A DNA stretch of 64,000 nt from the NCBI GenBank assembly GCA_010692635.1, contig JAAHGL010000002.1, positions 1 through 64,000 on the forward strand, in the 5' to 3' direction. Of this stretch, positions 54,925 to 64,000 are shown piece after piece. Each line of letters begins with the position of its first letter. Positions within the stretch are counted from its first letter, which is position 1. Below the pieces are notes generated by a model that was not told where the DNA came from, ran no database searches, and saw only the letters and a program-made list of their open reading frames with translations. Source of the stretch: Symploca sp. SIO2C1 (GTDB lineage: Bacteria > Cyanobacteriota > Cyanobacteriia > Cyanobacteriales > Coleofasciculaceae). The position numbers were made by a program, and so were the translations under genes.

Positions 54925-57900
54925 GTGATAGCCAAGAAAGCTTCCAAATCCAAGCGTCTTCGCAGCTATATACTAACGCCTGTTGGTGCTAAAAAACTCA
55001 GAAACAGCATCAGTGTTTTAGAGGAACAGACAGGTTTTAAATATAACCCCTCGAAAATTGCCGAACAAGCTCAATTGATTGGTCCTCAAGGTCTGCATCC
55101 AACCACAATTCGGAAAATCTTGCAGAACAAAGGTGGAGTGGACAAAAGTTCACTACAATTGCTTTTTCGGGTACTCCAGCTTGAACTCGAAGAAGAAGAC
55201 TATACCCAGCCAGGATTAGCAGAACTTGTTGCAGTTAAAACTTATCAGGATTGGGGTGAAGCAGTGAATGCTTCGCTTTTCTACGGTAGAACCTCAGAAT
55301 TAGAGGCTCTAAAACAGTGGATTGTTGAGGAGCGCTGCCGACTGGTTATGATATTGGGTATGGGTGGTATTGGGAAAACTACCCTGTCAGTCAAACTGGC
55401 AGAACAACTACAAGAGTCGTTTGACTATTTAATTTGGCGATCGCTACGAAATGCACCACCTTTAACAGATTTACTAGCTCAACTTATTCCTTTTCTCTCC
55501 CAACAAAAAGAAACCGCTGCCAATTTACCTAAAACTTCTATTAGTCGTCTTTCCCGACTACTTCATTATCTCGAAAGACAGCGCTGTTTGTTAGTATTTG
55601 ATAACATTGAGACGATCTTAAAACCTGGTAGTCCCTTAGGACGCTATCGTGATGGTTATGAAGGTTATGGAGAACTGTTTCAACGTATAGCACAAACTAC
55701 TCATCAGAGTTGTTTGCTGCTCACGAGTCGGGAAAAACCCCAAGGTATTGGTGCTCTTGAAGGAGAATGCTTACCTATTCGTTCCTGGCAACTGGGAGGC
55801 TTACTTGCTCAGGAAGGGGAAGAAATTTTGGGGTCTAAAGGTCTAAAAGGGTCACAACAGCAAAGAGACCAACTAACCCAACTCTATCACGGCAACCCCT
55901 TAGCCCTGAAGTTGGTGGCAACCTCAATTCAGGAATTATTTGCAGGGGATATTGGGGAATTTCTTAGTCAAGGTATCGTCGTTTTTAATGGTATTCGTCA
56001 ACTTTTACAACAGCAGTTTGAACGCCTCTCTTTCCTGGAACAGCAGATTCTCTATTGGTTGGCGATTAATCGAGAACCTATCACTTGCAATCAATTGCGG
56101 AGGGATATTGTGCCTCGGGTTTCTCTGGGGAGAATTCTGGAGGCTTTGGAATATATCAGCGGCAGATGTCTGATTGACAAGGCTACACCCACATTGTTTA
56201 CTTTGCAACCAGTAGTAATGGAGTATGTAAGCGATCGCTTGATTGAGGAAGTTAGTGAAGAAATCTACCAAACTCACCAGTCGGGAAGTCTCAACTATTT
56301 TAAAGTATTCAAACACCAAGCGCTGATTAAAGCTGAGTCTCAAGACTACATCCGCTTCTGGCAAGTTAATTTAATTCTCCAGCCGATAATTGAAGAGTTA
56401 TTGACGAATTTTGGTCATCGAGAAAGCCTGATCACTAGCTTAAACAAAATCCTTTCAGCTTTGCATTCTCAGCAGCACTCAACTTTTGGTTACATTGCAG
56501 GTAATATTCTCAATTTATTAGTACAGTTGCAAGCTGATTTGAGGGGTTACGACTTTTCTGGATTAACCCTGTGGCAAGCTCATCTGCAAGGGGTAGCTCT
56601 ACGCCAGGTAAACTTTACCCAAGCTAATCTAGCTAAGTCGGTGTTTAGTGAAACCTTTAGTAATGTTCATAGTTTGGCTCTTAGTCCTGATGGGAAGTGC
56701 TTAGCTACAGGACACGCCGACGGTGAGGTGCGCCTGTGGCAAGTCAGCGATGGTAAACTACTATTCAGAGCAGCAGCGCATACTAGTACAGTTTGGTCAG
56801 TGAGCTTTAGCTGTGATGGAAAAATTCTTGCTAGTGGTAGCTTCGATTCCTCAATCTGCCTTTGGGATGTAGACAAGCAACAGCTGCACCAAATATTAAG
56901 GGAGCATGATGGTTGGATTTGGTCAGTTGCTTTTAGTCCTAAGGGTAATTTATTGGCTAGTGGCAGTAGCGATCGCACGATCAAACTTTGGGATCTTGAA
57001 ACCGGGAGATCTATCAATACCTTAGAGGGACATACTGAAATCGTTCAAGCAGTAACCTTCAGTCCTGACGGGAAAACTCTAGCCAGTGGCAGTATTGACC
57101 AAACTGTGCGACTGTGGGACATTGACACCGGACAAATGCACCAAATTCTCCGAGGACATGTGCATCAGATTTCTGGTGTGGCATTTAGTGCTGACGGCAA
57201 GACTTTAGTTAGTTGTGAAGGACAAGCAATTAAATTCTGGGATGTTAAAACTGGGGTATGTCGCCAAAACATCACCGAGCAGCTGAAATTGGTTTGGTCG
57301 ATTGCCTTATGTTCTCTTAATGTAGCCTTCGGTCAAGAAACAGTATTAGTAGGAGGAGATGCTAGCGTTTTAAAATTTTGGGAGCTGGAAACCGGGGAAT
57401 GTTACCAAACCCTTTCAGGATTCACAGGTCAAGTTTGGTCTGTAGCACTAAATTCAACAGGACAATTTATCGCAGCGAGTGACAAGCAAACTGTAAAAGT
57501 ATGGCAAATTAAAAGAAGGCAGGAGGCAGGAAGCAGAAGGCAGAAGGCAGAAGAGTTAGCCAAGGAAATCCAAACCCTACAAAGTTATACTAACTCAATT
57601 TGGTCTGTAGCTTTCAGTCCAGATGGGAAAACCCTCGCTAGTGGTAATGCTGACCAGACAGTAAGTCTTTGGGATGTCGATAGCCGTCACTACATCAACA
57701 CTGTACACCATCACCACAAACCAGTTCATTCCCTAGCATTTAGTCAGGATGGAAACATTCTCGCTAGTGCTGGTGAAGACAAAACTATCCGAGTGTGGGA
57801 GCAACCAACAGGTAAATTGTGTTCTACACTTTTGGGACATACAGATTGTATTTGGTCAGTGGCATTTAGTCCAAAAGGTAATCTTCTTGCTAGTGGCAGT

Positions 57901-58560
57901 GCTGATCAAACTATTCGACTTTGGCAACTTCAGGATAACCGAAGCCTTAAAATCCTGCTAGGACATGAAAGTTGGGTGTTGTCCGTTGCTTTCAGTCCAG
58001 ATGGAGAGTATTTAGCTAGTAGCAGTGCCGATCAAACCCTACGATTATGGGATGTCAGTACAGGTAGATGCCTCAAAACCTGCTTCGGACATCAGAGTTT
58101 AATAGGTTTTGTTGCCTTTAGTCCAGATGGAAAAATCTTGGCTAGTGCCAGTGAAGACCAAACAGTAAGATTATGGGATATTCTCAACGGTGAGTGCTTG
58201 CAAACCTTCCAAGGACATCAGAGTTTTGTTTGGTCTGTAGCCTTTCATCCCACGGAAAATTTACTAGCTAGTAGTAGTGTAGATCGAACAATTCGGCTTT
58301 GGAATACCCAAACCGGTCAATGCATCAAAGTTTTAGAGGGACATACTCTCCCTGTTTGGTCAGTGGCATTCAGTCCAGATGGCAAAATGTTAGTCAGTGG
58401 CAGCGATGATGAAACAATTAAGTTTTGGGATGTAGTAACCGGAATGTGCCTAGATACCCTCAGACCAGAAAGAATTTACGAAGGCATGAAGATTAATGGA
58501 GTTACAGGACTAACAGAGGCACAGAAGGCAACCTTGATACGGTTGGGAGCAGAGAGTTAA
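54925..58560 (+). CDS. NB-ARC ATPase with 14 WD40 repeats (STAND protein)
   Basis: A 1211-residue signalling protein. N-terminus (about 10-95) is a helical DNA- or protein-binding-like domain (SYILTPVGAKKLRNSISVLE...). The NB-ARC part begins near 115: P-loop GMGGIGKTTL, Walker B LLVFDNIE, LLTSREKP, GNPLALKL. A short pentapeptide-like stretch (about 535-565) leads to 14 WD40 repeats, enough for two seven-blade propellers, and the tail ends GVTGLTEAQKATLIRLGAES. STAND proteins switch on when the sensor propellers bind a ligand; no effector is fused. Repeat 7 carries an in-frame 13-residue insert from heptamer DNA (57515-57555). Starts with GTG. Confidence 0.9.
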   Translation: MIAKKASKSKRLRSYILTPVGAKKLRNSISVLEEQTGFKYNPSKIAEQAQLIGPQGLHPTTIRKILQNKGGVDKSSLQLLFRVLQLELEEEDYTQPGLAELVAVKTYQDWGEAVNASLFYGRTSELEALKQWIVEERCRLVMILGMGGIGKTTLSVKLAEQLQESFDYLIWRSLRNAPPLTDLLAQLIPFLSQQKETAANLPKTSISRLSRLLHYLERQRCLLVFDNIETILKPGSPLGRYRDGYEGYGELFQRIAQTTHQSCLLLTSREKPQGIGALEGECLPIRSWQLGGLLAQEGEEILGSKGLKGSQQQRDQLTQLYHGNPLALKLVATSIQELFAGDIGEFLSQGIVVFNGIRQLLQQQFERLSFLEQQILYWLAINREPITCNQLRRDIVPRVSLGRILEALEYISGRCLIDKATPTLFTLQPVVMEYVSDRLIEEVSEEIYQTHQSGSLNYFKVFKHQALIKAESQDYIRFWQVNLILQPIIEELLTNFGHRESLITSLNKILSALHSQQHSTFGYIAGNILNLLVQLQADLRGYDFSGLTLWQAHLQGVALRQVNFTQANLAKSVFSETFSNVHSLALSPDGKCLATGHADGEVRLWQVSDGKLLFRAAAHTSTVWSVSFSCDGKILASGSFDSSICLWDVDKQQLHQILREHDGWIWSVAFSPKGNLLASGSSDRTIKLWDLETGRSINTLEGHTEIVQAVTFSPDGKTLASGSIDQTVRLWDIDTGQMHQILRGHVHQISGVAFSADGKTLVSCEGQAIKFWDVKTGVCRQNITEQLKLVWSIALCSLNVAFGQETVLVGGDASVLKFWELETGECYQTLSGFTGQVWSVALNSTGQFIAASDKQTVKVWQIKRRQEAGSRRQKAEELAKEIQTLQSYTNSIWSVAFSPDGKTLASGNADQTVSLWDVDSRHYINTVHHHHKPVHSLAFSQDGNILASAGEDKTIRVWEQPTGKLCSTLLGHTDCIWSVAFSPKGNLLASGSADQTIRLWQLQDNRSLKILLGHESWVLSVAFSPDGEYLASSSADQTLRLWDVSTGRCLKTCFGHQSLIGFVAFSPDGKILASASEDQTVRLWDILNGECLQTFQGHQSFVWSVAFHPTENLLASSSVDRTIRLWNTQTGQCIKVLEGHTLPVWSVAFSPDGKMLVSGSDDETIKFWDVVTGMCLDTLRPERIYEGMKINGVTGLTEAQKATLIRLGAES

Positions 58561-58873: not shown

Positions 58874-61540
58874 ATGCTGCATTCAAACAACCAATCAATG
58901 CCAGTTGTTCAACAGACCGACACAATAAATAATCAGTCATTAAGGGAAGCGCTTTACGATGCCATAGAATCACAACGCCTGGGAGGAGAAGAGACTTCTG
59001 TTATTAAGTTCAGTCCGGATAAGAAAACGATCGCTACTGTCGATCAGGATGGGCAAGTAAAGCTGTGGAATTTTAATAATAAAGATAATAAAGCTAAACC
59101 CCTCTCCGACGAGCCAGAGTTTACAGACATTTTTTTTAGTCCTGGCAATGGTGAGATAATTGCTACTCTCAGTAACGATAAAGTTGTCCATCTCTGGAAC
59201 AAAGATGGTGAGGAACTTGCATCTCTTTCCCAAGAGGACAATGTTTCACATGTAGAGTTGAGTCCTGACGGTAAGTTAGTTGCTACCTTTAGTGGAGAGG
59301 ACGACTCGATTGGCAAACTCTGGAAGCTTGAGGAAGGGACACTCAAACGCTTAATTTCTACTGATAAATTTAATTATGCGAGCTTAGGTCCAGATGGTAA
59401 GATTGTCACTTACAATTGGGAAGAAGGTAACATTAAATTGTGGCAATTTAATGGTAATGAACTGAAGGAATGGAATCCTTTACCCTCTAATGAGAAGTTT
59501 GATGACTTATCTTTATACCCTAGTACTAAGATAATTATGACCTGGAATCTAGATGAAAATACGGTCAAATATTGGAACCTTGAGGGGAAAGAACTTAAAT
59601 TCTCAATTTCGGCAAAAGAACTTGGGCAAGACTCTCTTATCTCAGACATTAGCTCCGAAGGCAGGATTCTTGCTACCTTTGAGAAAGATGAAGATAAGAA
59701 AGTAAAACTTTGGTATAGCGATGGTACACAGCCGAAAACTTTATCCCATGACGCAGAAATCGCAGGAGTCTGGTTTAGTCCCAATAACCAGATAATTGCC
59801 ACTGCTAGTAAAGATACAATAGTCAAACTCTGGAACCAGGAAGGTGAGGAAATATCAACCTTGCCGAGCCATAGCAAGCCAGTCTATAACGTGACTTTCA
59901 GCCAAGATAGTAAAATCATTGCGACTACTAGCTATGATAAAACTGTAAAACTTTGGAACGACAAGGGCAATAAACTTAGAACTCTTTACCCAAATATTCC
60001 AGTTGATGAAGTCCATTTCAACTCAGATAATAAGACTGTCGCTACTTTGGATGAGAATAACATTGTCAAACTCTGGAATATTGACAATAGCGATCGCCAA
60101 TTTTTAGATCATAAGGCTCCAGTAGATAGTGTCAGTTTTAGCGCTAACAACAAGTTGATTGCCACCTTTAGTTCGTCTAGGGGCAACCCAAGTGCTAAAC
60201 TCTGGAACTTAGAAGGCAAACAGAGTAAACTCTTACCTCCTGAAGAGAAGTTCGATAATGTAGAATTTAGCCCTGACGGCAAGCTGATTGTCACCTCTAG
60301 TTCGTCTGGGAATAACCCAATGACTCAATTCTGGAGTGTAGAGGATAAAAAACTTCAACCTCTACTTCCTGAAGGAAAGTTCGATTACGTGGAATTTAGT
60401 CCTGACGGCAAGCTGATTGTCACCTCTAGTTCCTCTAGGAACAACCCAACAACTCAACTCTGGAGTGTAGAGGATAAAAAACTCCAACCTCTACTCCCTA
60501 ACGAGAAGTTCAATAATGTAGAATTTAGCCCCGACGGCAAACTGATGGCTATTTTCAGTAACAATGATGACAAAACTACCATCAAACTGTGGAAGCCTGA
60601 CAAAGATAAGAGTCCCATATGCTTTATTACCCTTGCTAACGAACCATTCCCTGAGGTAAAGTTCAGTTCCAACGGTAAATTGATGGCTATCTCTGGTAGC
60701 TCTGAAGACAAGCAAACAGCTAAACTCTGGAACTTGGAGGACAAAGAAAGCAAACTCTTACTTACTGAAGAAAAATTTGAGCAAGTGGAATTTAGCCCCG
60801 ATGGTAAGCTGATAGCTATTCTTAGTAAGAATAATGACAAGACTACCATTAAAATCTTCAGCTTGGAGGGAGAACAACCCAAATTCTTACACGATACAGA
60901 GAACTTTGAGCAAGTGGAATTCAGCGCCGACGGCAAGCTGATAGCTATCTTCAGTGATCATGAGAAAAAGACCGGAATCGAGTTGTTCAAGCGCAAGGGA
61001 ATGGAACTCATACCCTTAAATACTAATGACTTTGATAACGAACAGTTCAATGAGGTAGAATTCAGTCCCGACAGTGAGTTGATTGTAACCTCTACTTCCT
61101 CTTGGGATGACTCCTGGGAGGAACACAAACTCTGGGTTGTAGATAGTAGTGATGCTCAAAAACCCCAACTTCAACCGATTAACGAGCAATTCTACGGGGT
61201 GGTATTCAGCTCCGATAACAAATTGATTGCTACTTTTGATGGCAGTAACACTGTCCAACTCTGGAATCGAAACAACGAACAACTTGCTAGCATAGACTTT
61301 AAAGATTCTATCAACAACCTGGATTTTAGTCCTGACAACAAAAAACTCGCCATTACCAGTGATAGCAACACGGTGGTTCTATGGGATTTGGAACGACGAA
61401 CTGAATGGAAAGAGTTGCCAAACAAAGGACTAAAAGAGTTACTTGAAGAAGGGTGTGAGAAGGTGAAAAATTACCTGAAGCGCAAAAAGAATAACGATAA
61501 AGATCTCTGTGACGATATTGAGAAGAAGAAAGTAAGATAG
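58874..61540 (+). CDS. Free-standing WD40 protein (about 17-19 repeats)
   Basis: An 888-residue protein made almost entirely of WD40-type repeats (VEFSPDGKLIA...KLWNLE). A short N-terminal part reads QSLREALYDAIESQRLGGEE and the C-terminus is LKELLEEGCEKVKNYLKRK with DKDLCDDI. That tail is the one usually seen at the end of long TIR- or peptidase-WD40 fusions, so this looks like the sensor half of a fusion protein standing alone. Three central repeats (near 60240-60540) are close copies with period about 129 bases. There is no membrane segment. It lies 383 bases upstream of the triple-TIR gene on the same strand. Confidence 0.88.
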   Translation: MLHSNNQSMPVVQQTDTINNQSLREALYDAIESQRLGGEETSVIKFSPDKKTIATVDQDGQVKLWNFNNKDNKAKPLSDEPEFTDIFFSPGNGEIIATLSNDKVVHLWNKDGEELASLSQEDNVSHVELSPDGKLVATFSGEDDSIGKLWKLEEGTLKRLISTDKFNYASLGPDGKIVTYNWEEGNIKLWQFNGNELKEWNPLPSNEKFDDLSLYPSTKIIMTWNLDENTVKYWNLEGKELKFSISAKELGQDSLISDISSEGRILATFEKDEDKKVKLWYSDGTQPKTLSHDAEIAGVWFSPNNQIIATASKDTIVKLWNQEGEEISTLPSHSKPVYNVTFSQDSKIIATTSYDKTVKLWNDKGNKLRTLYPNIPVDEVHFNSDNKTVATLDENNIVKLWNIDNSDRQFLDHKAPVDSVSFSANNKLIATFSSSRGNPSAKLWNLEGKQSKLLPPEEKFDNVEFSPDGKLIVTSSSSGNNPMTQFWSVEDKKLQPLLPEGKFDYVEFSPDGKLIVTSSSSRNNPTTQLWSVEDKKLQPLLPNEKFNNVEFSPDGKLMAIFSNNDDKTTIKLWKPDKDKSPICFITLANEPFPEVKFSSNGKLMAISGSSEDKQTAKLWNLEDKESKLLLTEEKFEQVEFSPDGKLIAILSKNNDKTTIKIFSLEGEQPKFLHDTENFEQVEFSADGKLIAIFSDHEKKTGIELFKRKGMELIPLNTNDFDNEQFNEVEFSPDSELIVTSTSSWDDSWEEHKLWVVDSSDAQKPQLQPINEQFYGVVFSSDNKLIATFDGSNTVQLWNRNNEQLASIDFKDSINNLDFSPDNKKLAITSDSNTVVLWDLERRTEWKELPNKGLKELLEEGCEKVKNYLKRKKNNDKDLCDDIEKKKVR

Positions 61541-61922
61541 CTCTTATATAGGGGTGAGGTGAAAAAAAGGTGTGGGAGAGCTTTTTTGAGTAATGAGTAA
61601 TGAGTAATGAGTAATGAGTAATGAGTAATGAGTAATGAGTGAAGACACTAAGGTAAAACCTATTTACCGCAAGGAACTTAAGTTCCTTGCTAATAGTTCA
61701 AGTCATCTAAAGATGACTCAATCTGCTCAAAAATCTAGGACTTATGCACCGTAACTCAATTATGTCATCCTGAGCGATAGCGAAGGATCTCCAAACGACC
61801 CAGATACTTCACTATCACCTATCTCTAGCTTAAGTTGACATCAATGACCTACGTGCTCAATTAGGGAGATTTTTACTTATTTCACTTTGTAATTCTTAGC
61901 TTGGTGCAAATACAGAAAAACG
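61541..61922. repeat. Gap between WD40 and TIR genes: partial MITE A, palindrome, hairpin, family D copy
   Basis: 61552-61645 is an inverted partial copy of element family A (GGGTGAGGTGAAAAAAAGGTG...) with about six or seven heptamers instead of four. 61669-61690 is a perfect 22-bp palindrome (GCAAGGAACTT/AAGTTCCTTGC). 61701-61718 is the hairpin AGTCATCT-AA-AGATGACT. 61758-61845 is the inverted family D fragment. About 75 AT-rich bases remain before the TIR start. Confidence 0.75.
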
Positions 61923-64000
61923 ATGCAACTTTTCGACGCTTTCATTTCCTACGGACGAGCTGATAGTAAAGCCTTTGCTGCTAAACTTCAAGGTTGCTTG
62001 GCAGAACAAGGGTTCAAAATCTGGTTTGACTTCAATGACATTCCTCTAGGAGTAGACTTCCAAAATCAAATTGATGATGGTATTGAGAAAGCACATCAGT
62101 TCCTATTTATTATTGCACCCCATTCGATAAATTCCCCCTACTGTCGCAAAGAAATTGAACTAGCGATTAAGTGTCATAAACGCATTATTCCCCTACTCCA
62201 CGTTGAGCAGATTAACCAGGAAACTTGGCAACAGAGAAACCCCAACGGCACAGTAGAAGAATGGGAAGCATATCAAGCCAAAGGATTGCATTCGAGTTTT
62301 CCCAATATGCACCCCACCATTGGCAAGATTAACTGGGTTTATTTTCGCGAGGGCATTGATGACTTTGACAAATCCTTAGCTGACTTAATTAACTTACTCG
62401 GTTCTCATCATGATTATGTTGAGCAACATACCCAATTGTTAGTGAAAGCTCTGGAATGGCAACGGCATCAAAGACAAACGAGATATCTGTTAACTGGAGA
62501 AGGGAGACAGCAGGCTACTTCTTGGCTCAAAATACACTTCAAAGAGGAGCAACCTCCTTGTACTCCTAGTGATTTACATTGTGAATACATCACTGAATGT
62601 ATCAAGAATGGCAATAACTTAATGACTCAGGTATTCCTCTCCTATGCTGATGAAAATAGGGAAACAATGGAGAAAATTCGCAACAGCCTGAGGCGGAAAA
62701 GTATTACGGTTTGGACAAATCTCACGGATATTCAAACCGGGGAAGCATTTGGCGAGGCAATAAACCGAGGCATTGAACAAGCGGATAACTTGGTTTACCT
62801 CCTTTCTCCTGAGTCAATCAACTCGAAATACTGTCAACAAGAATTGGACTTGGCTTTGTCGCTCAACAAGCGGATTATACCGGTGCTGGTGCGGGAAACT
62901 GAGCCCAAGACAATACCGCATGAACTCCGGCAGTTACAGTATATTGACCTGACAGACAATGTTCAGGAAGAGGATTACCTGCTTGATGAAAGCCAACTGC
63001 TGAAGATTTTGCAGCAAGATGAGGCTTTCTACAACGAGCATAAAATGCTATTGACGAAGGCGCTCAAGTGGAAGCGACAGCACGAGAATCCTAGTGTTTT
63101 ACTGCGGGGGTATAACCTCAGGAGTGCGGAAACTTGGTTGAAGGTAGCGCTTACAAGGGAACAGCATCCCCCCACATCATTACAGGAAGAATTCATTGCT
63201 GAAAGCCTGCGGCAACCCCCCTTAGAGTCATTGGATGTATTTATTTCCTATTCCCGTGCTGACTCGGACTTGGGGAGAAAGCTTAATGATAGCTTACAGA
63301 TGCAGGGTAAAACTACCTGGTTTGATCAAGAAAGTATTGCCTCAGGGAGTGATTTTCAGCAGGAGATTAATCGGGGGATTAAAGCCTGTGACAACTTTTT
63401 GTTTATTCTCTCACCCCGCTCGGTAAATTCGCCTTATTGTAAGGATGAAGTGGAATATGCGACTTCATTGAACAAGCGCTTTGTGACAGTGCTGCATCGG
63501 CAGGTAAATCCAGGAGATTTGCATCCAGAGTTAGCCAAGGTGCAGTGGATTGATTTTAATAAGCAAGATTTTAATGCCAATTTTAACGAATTGGTGAGAA
63601 CCCTGGATCTAGACAGAGAACATGTCCATAGTCATACTAAATGGTTGCAAAGAGCGATCGAATGGGAGCAAAAAGACAAGAGTAAAGATTTACTATTGCG
63701 GGGGAGTGAGTTTGCTGTTGCTCAAGACTGGTTGCAAACTGCTTTAGCTAAAAATAAAAAGCCTCTCCCGACAGTTTTACAGCAGACATTTGCCGAGGAA
63801 AGTCAAAAAGCCATCATTGCAGCAGAAGAAGTGGAGAAAACTCGACAAGCTGAAATGCTGCGCTTGCAGGAGGAAAAGACAAAAGAAGCTGAAGCGAGGC
63901 TGGCAGAAGAAAAAAAAGGTGCCAGACTACAAAAATTATTCTTGGGTGTGGTGAGTGTGGCATTTTTAGTTTCTCTAGGGTTGGCAGGGGTAGCCAGGAA
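61923..64000 (+). CDS. Triple-TIR transmembrane protein, 3' end outside window
   Basis: The frame is open from ATG 61923 to the window end (692 residues seen). Three TIR domains start at about residues 3, 236 and 437 (DAFISYGRADSK; QVFLSYADENRE; DVFISYSRADSD). Each keeps the candidate NADase glutamate in YCRKE (Glu77), YCQQE and YCKDE. After each TIR comes a shared linker (LLRG...A..WL......PPT.L...F..ES). A coiled coil (about 635-670) and a membrane helix (about 672-692, LFLGVVSVAFLVSLGLAGV) follow. By analogy with other TIR-TM-WD40 proteins, WD40 repeats may follow beyond the window. TIR domains of this kind cleave NAD in plant, animal and anti-phage immunity. Confidence 0.9.
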   Translation, partial: MQLFDAFISYGRADSKAFAAKLQGCLAEQGFKIWFDFNDIPLGVDFQNQIDDGIEKAHQFLFIIAPHSINSPYCRKEIELAIKCHKRIIPLLHVEQINQETWQQRNPNGTVEEWEAYQAKGLHSSFPNMHPTIGKINWVYFREGIDDFDKSLADLINLLGSHHDYVEQHTQLLVKALEWQRHQRQTRYLLTGEGRQQATSWLKIHFKEEQPPCTPSDLHCEYITECIKNGNNLMTQVFLSYADENRETMEKIRNSLRRKSITVWTNLTDIQTGEAFGEAINRGIEQADNLVYLLSPESINSKYCQQELDLALSLNKRIIPVLVRETEPKTIPHELRQLQYIDLTDNVQEEDYLLDESQLLKILQQDEAFYNEHKMLLTKALKWKRQHENPSVLLRGYNLRSAETWLKVALTREQHPPTSLQEEFIAESLRQPPLESLDVFISYSRADSDLGRKLNDSLQMQGKTTWFDQESIASGSDFQQEINRGIKACDNFLFILSPRSVNSPYCKDEVEYATSLNKRFVTVLHRQVNPGDLHPELAKVQWIDFNKQDFNANFNELVRTLDLDREHVHSHTKWLQRAIEWEQKDKSKDLLLRGSEFAVAQDWLQTALAKNKKPLPTVLQQTFAEESQKAIIAAEEVEKTRQAEMLRLQEEKTKEAEARLAEEKKGARLQKLFLGVVSVAFLVSLGLAGVAR

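Follow-up and report, generated by a model that had tools for sequence, protein, structure and literature searches.

Cyanobacterial membrane proteins with three linked TIR domains, a candidate family of transmembrane defence receptors

Three TIR domains are joined in tandem on a single membrane-anchored protein encoded in the window, the whole stretch of 64,000 nucleotides of Symploca sp. SIO2C1 DNA analyzed here, and the same layout is repeated in a cyanobacterial family that is new relative to the literature searched; single-TIR proteins with the same linker and a WD40 end also exist. The reading that we favor, to which we give a little under an even chance, is that these tri-TIR proteins are transmembrane receptors of self-destruction or defence, in which the linked TIRs would cleave NAD and, in at least part of the family, a SLATT protein would serve as effector.

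Organization of the tri-TIR gene

The gene occupies 61923-66074 on the forward strand and encodes 1383 amino acids. The window holds the first 692 of these, and the 71,948-base contig supplied the remainder. At the window end the ORF at 61923-64000 (+) is still open, and the early break in the frame that the sequence-only reading had named as a danger is excluded, since the frame runs on to 66074. The order of domains is TIR1, linker, TIR2, linker, TIR3, linker, coiled coil, membrane helix, WD40 repeats and short C-terminal helices. The three tandem TIRs first seen by eye are confirmed by the motifs and by Pfam TIR_2, which matches the protein in three separate stretches (protein E 3.3e-85). 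The coiled coil and membrane helix proposed to follow them are represented by a helix at about residues 618-664 and a hydrophobic stretch at 672-690, and the WD40 repeats expected downstream of the window are present on the extended contig. The features are as follows.

58874..61540, +, WD40-only ORF; 126 bp from 58938 identical to the end of contig C464
61923..64000, +, window part of the tri-TIR membrane protein gene, continuing to 66074 on the same contig
61932..62402, +, TIR1 (aa 4-160); Pfam TIR_2/TIR and AF2; motifs invariant in 104/104
62151..62153, +, codon of the candidate catalytic Glu77 of TIR1; E in 104/104
62409..62618, +, helical linker 1, a diverged copy; sequence comparison and AF2
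62625..63014, +, TIR2 (aa 235-364), with an SY box that decays in relatives; Pfam, motifs and AF2
62841..62843, +, codon of the candidate catalytic Glu307 of TIR2; E in 100/104
63018..63224, +, helical linker 2; sequence comparison and AF2
63231..63608, +, TIR3 (aa 437-562); Pfam, motifs and AF2
63447..63449, +, codon of the candidate catalytic Glu509 of TIR3; E in 91/104, otherwise Q (8), A (2), S (1) and D (1)
63615..63818, +, helical linker 3; sequence comparison and AF2
63774..63914, +, long coiled-coil-like helix (aa 618-664); AF2 helices
63936..63992, +, hydrophobic membrane helix (aa 672-690); hydropathy and flanking charge, low AF2 confidence

AlphaFold confidently predicts a fixed arrangement of the three TIRs and their linkers: modeling of the first 640 residues with an alignment of 60 relatives gave a mean pLDDT of 93.0 and a pTM of 0.88. 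The C-terminal 821 residues (pLDDT 87.8, pTM 0.75) are modeled as a long helix at about residues 618-664 and then strands, with confidence dropping at the membrane helix itself. These strands make up some 14 WD40 blades after the membrane helix, which in the model probably form two seven-bladed propellers. A fold search of the PDB matched the window TIRs to TIR structures with target-normalized TM-scores of up to 0.88, including Hydra TRR-2, SARM1, RPP1, AbTir, SPARTA and MyD88, all of which have a single TIR. Judged from the entry descriptions, there is no multi-TIR chain among the matches listed. By both profile and fold the window TIRs belong to the TIR domain superfamily. TIR1 additionally carries a family-specific insertion of about 40 residues (W..R.P.GT...NMHP.I.KINW).

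A common linker, LLRG..WL..PPT, had been proposed to join the domains. Linkers 2 and 3 fit this closely, and linker 1 has diverged from it (LLTG..WL..PPCTPSDLHCEYITEC). The helical linker of 60-70 residues that accompanies the TIRs occurs also in a TIR-NTPase protein (L193), and there is a weaker match in caspase-nSTAND1 proteins, at the NTPase end. It is therefore a common joining module and not an invention of the window gene; to judge by these occurrences, it belongs to cyanobacterial proteins of the conflict type.

The region upstream probably contains the end of a second gene. From its sequence, the WD40-only ORF probably completes a tandem tri-TIR gene A, supplying the C-terminal half, with the N-terminal half on C464. 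The 126 bp identity at about 58938 is the size of an assembler overlap. A sister genome (G001) has patatin, SLATT, tri-TIR gene A and gene B in that order, so the join at about 58938 reflects a genuine rearrangement or else a chimera made in assembly. Further upstream, 54925-58560 encodes a large protein that has, by eye, STAND-like NTPase motifs, together with some 13 WD40 repeats, and a short tandem repeat of gagtaat units lies at 61588-61640, in the gap that separates the tri-TIR gene from the WD40-only ORF. Directly downstream of the tri-TIR gene on the window contig runs a set of sigma-70-like, DUF1822 and CHAT-TPR genes (L009:5513-10668).

Size and origin of the family

How widespread is the three-TIR layout? 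Five tri-TIR genes are found in this genome, on contigs C112 (the window gene), C464, C438 and C79 (WD40) and C120 (CHASE2), that on C464 being truncated by the contig end; a 29-residue match at the end of contig C2 was excluded as a sixth copy. Together the five genes hold 15 of the 24 TIR_2 matches of the genome. Relatives are present in 21 of 59 near genomes and in 12 of a phylum-wide sample of 386, and at 78 named loci in Symploca, Moorena, Calothrix, Nostoc, Anabaena, Dolichospermum, Okeania, Leptolyngbya, Planktothricoides and others. The survey for further multi-TIR, membrane-helix and WD40 proteins that the sequence-only reading had recommended has thus turned up a large cyanobacterial family of 107 distinct relatives. 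Because the layout recurs in four more genes here and in about 100 relatives, we reject chance or an assembly artefact as its source.

Exactly three TIRs with near-constant spacing are found in 104 of the 107 distinct proteins, which were gathered with a three-TIR query. Two of the exceptions are cut by contig ends and the third has five TIRs. When 59 cyanobacterial genomes were scanned independently with TIR_2, the only ORFs matched more than once were those of the tri-TIR family, and no two-TIR ORF was found. The earlier expectation that bacterial TIRs are mostly single thus holds in these genomes. Our literature search, which was incomplete in coverage and so is weak evidence of absence, found no description of three-TIR proteins, and the papers listed for two or tandem TIRs concern unrelated or eukaryotic cases.

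In a tree of 94 TIRs the first, second and third positions form separate clades (SH-aLRT 100, 95 and 94, respectively), which hold with the copies of the five-TIR protein set apart, and the single-TIR relatives form a clade of their own. The separate clades imply one triplication, the copies having kept their identities since; on the tree, then, this is a single old event that has been retained, and recent duplication within the gene is ruled out. Two proteins (L191 and L192) combine one TIR with the linker, the membrane helix and the WD40 end of the tri-TIR proteins, and this layout looks ancestral.

Some individual genes depart from the common form. The five-TIR protein, of CHASE2 type (L195:1928-6460, in G253), apparently has TIR1-TIR2 placed before TIR1-TIR2-TIR3, an arrangement deduced from the spacing and partly from the tree. 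In Microseira wollei (L090:6974-10754) the tri-TIR gene lies in three ORFs of 549, 230 and 442 codons and is apparently broken. The ORF at L198:1423-2679 (G000:C56) has an N-terminal caspase-like region (by eye) and then a TIR, with a short TIR ORF just downstream.

Unequal conservation of the three TIRs

The window protein has the FxSY box as FISY, FLSY and FISY in TIR1, TIR2 and TIR3, and the YCxxE motif as YCRKE, YCQQE and YCKDE, placing the glutamates at residues 77, 307 and 509. The sequence features of TIR NADases (the αC glutamate, the aromatic residue at E-4, FxSY and the W.D loop) are all present in its TIR1 and TIR3. TIR2 keeps the glutamate, FLSY and the tryptophan, with WTN replacing WFD. 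The sequence-only reading took the protein to have three full TIRs, each with FxSY and the glutamate. This is correct for the window protein, but the copies are unequal across the family. The candidate catalytic glutamate is kept in 104/104 members in TIR1, 100/104 in TIR2 and 91/104 in TIR3, and ISYGR of TIR1 is found without exception (n = 104), while SY is intact in 56/104 for TIR2 and 92/104 for TIR3. The glutamate of TIR3 is the most often lost, in about a dozen members and to glutamine in eight. In three Symploca-type genomes gene A of the tandem has this change of Glu to Gln in TIR3, and gene B has all three glutamates.

TIR enzymes are switched on when separate TIRs are brought together. 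That TIR NADases require TIR-TIR contact, as the earlier argument assumed, is established in the literature (PMC12847820, PMC9402430), and filaments of TIRs build their active site between adjacent members of one strand (PMC12847820, PMC9402430). Should the three TIRs line up in such a strand, the loss of glutamate from TIR3 could be explained by its position as the end unit, lacking a partner within the chain.

The sensor region and membrane topology

C-terminal to the membrane helix, motifs and phmmer identify 77 proteins as WD40 and 23 as CHASE2, the latter type verified by Pfam in two members; L082 has a further CHASE2-like tail (by eye). The type of sensor has switched at least twice on the module tree, or three times counting L082. 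Within flanks of 15 residues, the side of the membrane helix facing the TIRs has more lysine and arginine than the side facing the sensor in 71/77 WD40 and 22/23 CHASE2 proteins, with the opposite in 0; on net charge the bias to the TIR side is found in 65/77 and 23/23. Taken by itself, the window protein shows this asymmetry only weakly, and K/R also occur beyond its helix. CHASE2 is taken to be a sensor located outside the cytoplasm. The charge bias and the exchange with CHASE2 suggest that the TIRs are cytoplasmic and the sensor lies outside the membrane.

Many members of the family have a DIVERSIFYING propeller with near-identical WD40 repeats, the median identity exceeding 0.6 in 20/51; the repeats of the window gene are less homogenized than these. 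The repeats differ chiefly at the H-x-x-x-V-x-S and S-x-D-x-T positions. Where repeats share 75% identity or more, five contact codons have a pN/pS of 1.27 and the other codons 0.25; the test was not blind, the positions having been chosen after the repeats had been viewed. The contact codons exceed the rest in 15/15 proteins, and their pN/pS is greater than 1 in 9/15. Variable hotspots in highly repetitive WD40 proteins have been reported independently (PMC5587647), and the positions chosen here coincide with them. On these data the repeats are homogenized yet hypervariable at contact positions, and the varied contacts suggest an arms race.

Neighboring genes

Pfam shows that genes for SLATT/DUF4231, LSDAT-type SLOG and patatin proteins recur around the named loci. 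Of the 29 DUF4231 matches in the near genomes, 9 (at 6 loci) have a tri-TIR gene no more than 3.3 kb away, where 0.35 would be expected by chance within 10 kb (Poisson P ~2e-6 for loci), an enrichment tested after the pattern had been noticed and with at least two genomes common to the first set. The distances are 0.7-3.2 kb, and SLATT neighbors recur in unrelated genera. Two LSDAT genes lie near tri-TIR genes vs 0.1 expected, with two more near single-TIR genes. SLOG and SLATT are found at a subset of the relatives' loci (L101, L103, L104, L107, L110, G025 and G008), a minority overall, and neither adjoins the intact gene of the window. The tri-TIR gene on C464 has a SLATT 902 bp away and no SLOG. 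The CHASE2-type genes adjoin DUF928, CHAT-like and secretion-type genes. SLATT proteins are predicted to be membrane effectors controlled by ADPr derivatives, and occur beside TIRs in phages (PMC9503650). In Thoeris a SLOG domain senses the TIR product (PMC10022894).

Several of the SLATT/DUF4231 proteins near tri-TIR genes carry a fusion partner, either phage lysozyme or C39 peptidase and chitinase-like (GH19) ends; in L126 and L132 the match to GH19 is weak. They are located as follows.

L107:3491-4927, fused SLATT/DUF4231 protein
L109:11261-12691, fused SLATT/DUF4231 protein
L110:12820-14298, fused SLATT/DUF4231 protein
L101:4417-6756, fused SLATT/DUF4231 protein
L126:11441-13045, fused SLATT/DUF4231 protein
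L132:7360-9000, fused SLATT/DUF4231 protein

From its sequence the fused form might possibly be an effector that lyses both membrane and cell wall. Two uncharacterized proteins of about 119 and 475 residues recur after SLATT near CHASE2-type genes (L107:5027-6876, L109 and L110), and neither has a Pfam match in L107.

Discussion

In the mechanism that we propose, the WD40 propeller, or CHASE2 in the sister branch, would lie beyond the cytoplasmic membrane and sense a ligand there, with the membrane helix and coiled coil relaying the signal inward. The three linked TIRs in the cytoplasm would then come together, both inside one chain and across clustered chains, as composite sites of NAD cleavage, with TIR1 as the obligate catalyst, TIR2 in a partly scaffolding role and TIR3 as an end unit able to lose its glutamate. 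In at least part of the family an ADP-ribose-type product of NAD would act on the neighboring SLATT effector, a SLOG sensor or patatin lipase taking part at some loci, and permeabilization of the cell would be the outcome. The central idea of the sequence-only reading, a pre-linked set of TIRs on the membrane, survives, and the linked trimer might, as that reading suggested, lower an activation threshold or seed a filament.

The receptor might instead be an executioner that kills by draining NAD, the SLATT, SLOG and patatin genes being simply other members of defence islands. TIR-STING, Cat1 and SpbK work through NAD degradation (PMC9402430, PMC12162218, PMC12847820), and no SLATT was seen at most tri-TIR loci within the DNA examined. 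Yet the SLATT genes are enriched well above chance, at short range and in unrelated genera, and we regard depletion alone as unlikely, if still a serious contender. A rather improbable alternative is that the protein is a signaling scaffold or a sensor of stress or development, in which the TIRs mainly assemble and the CHASE2 branch is tied to the DUF928, CHAT and secretion set. Such genes do adjoin the CHASE2 forms, and the motifs of TIR2 and TIR3 decay in several members, but the catalytic motif of TIR1 is invariant, and the diversifying propeller contacts are more suggestive of an arms race.

The remaining alternatives concern topology and origin. Were the WD40 region cytoplasmic and the hydrophobic stretch only an anchor, the protein would be an intracellular sensor like the caspase-nSTAND1 proteins, in which the same linker ends the NTPase; the K/R on the far side of the helix in the window protein would fit this. 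The charge asymmetry over the whole family and the interchange with CHASE2 point the other way, and we give this arrangement little credence. That the layout is a recent tandem duplication or an assembly artefact, meaningless for function, draws on the tandem genes and the suspicious contig join near 58938. It deserves practically no weight, given the same layout in about 100 proteins from many cyanobacterial families and TIR positions that are old, separate clades.

Returning to the proposed defence receptor, the tri-TIR family provides a natural test of the number of TIRs needed for an active site and of which ones have to be catalytic, and the SLATT neighbors supply a concrete candidate effector. 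If the sensor is indeed external, there would be bacterial transmembrane TIR receptors with a fast-evolving recognition surface, and this would bear on the origin of membrane TIR receptors. A fuller form of the proposal is a Toll-receptor-like, outside-in class of bacterial immunity, having one membrane helix that carries a diversifying propeller on the outside, three linked TIRs with divided labor (an obligate TIR1 and a dispensable TIR3 at the end), and SLATT effectors, some with cell-wall hydrolases attached, opened by an ADP-ribose-type product; we think this possible, while leaning against it.

Relationship to known systems

No full-length match to a defence family was obtained with PADLOC or NCBIfam. 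The NCBIfam scores are below cut-off, with 108.9 vs 220 bits for Thoeris type III ThcB4 and 103.7 vs 600 bits for Retron-TIR, and ThsB models match only the TIR stretches of the tri-TIR protein. Pfam finds no NTPase in residues 1-692 of the window protein, the remainder of which is WD40, nor in the whole of the C120 protein, and we therefore reject a STAND/NLR-like receptor.

The closest relatives in layout are L191 and L192, which share the order of parts, linker, position of the membrane helix and WD40 end, and differ in having one TIR, of a clade apart from TIR1, TIR2 and TIR3. Thoeris (ThsB TIR with ThsA SIR2-SLOG) resembles those tri-TIR loci where a TIR lies beside a SLOG-domain protein, and in the messenger logic that we propose. 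However, the SLOG of the tri-TIR loci is of LSDAT type, the TIRs are three, fused and membrane-bound, and no ThsA or SIR2 was seen in the neighbor clusters examined around tri-TIR genes. TIR-STING, SpbK, SARM1 and AbTir have the TIR fold and conserved glutamate and need TIR-TIR assembly, with one TIR per chain where the tri-TIR protein has three linked and a sensor probably across the membrane. As in the SLOG-SLATT systems (Burroughs/Aravind), LSDAT-SLOG and SLATT genes recur near the family, here beside a transmembrane three-TIR protein and with lysozyme or chitinase ends on some SLATTs.

The cyanobacterial highly repetitive WD40 proteins (PMC5587647) share the near-identical repeats and variable interaction hotspots, and the main text of that survey makes no mention of TIR or immunity. 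Dictyostelium TirE (PMC13142454) also has more than one TIR per chain, but these are two diverged tandem TIRs in a eukaryotic protein with RCC1 repeats. Toll-like receptors have a cytoplasmic TIR, one membrane helix and an external repeat sensor, as suggested by the topology proposed here. The order along the tri-TIR chain is the opposite, the repeats are WD40 and not LRR, and the TIRs are likely to be enzymatic. With N-terminal TIRs and a WD40 or CHASE2 sensor the proteins are not members of the Toll-like receptors, and the resemblance is an analogy of layout.
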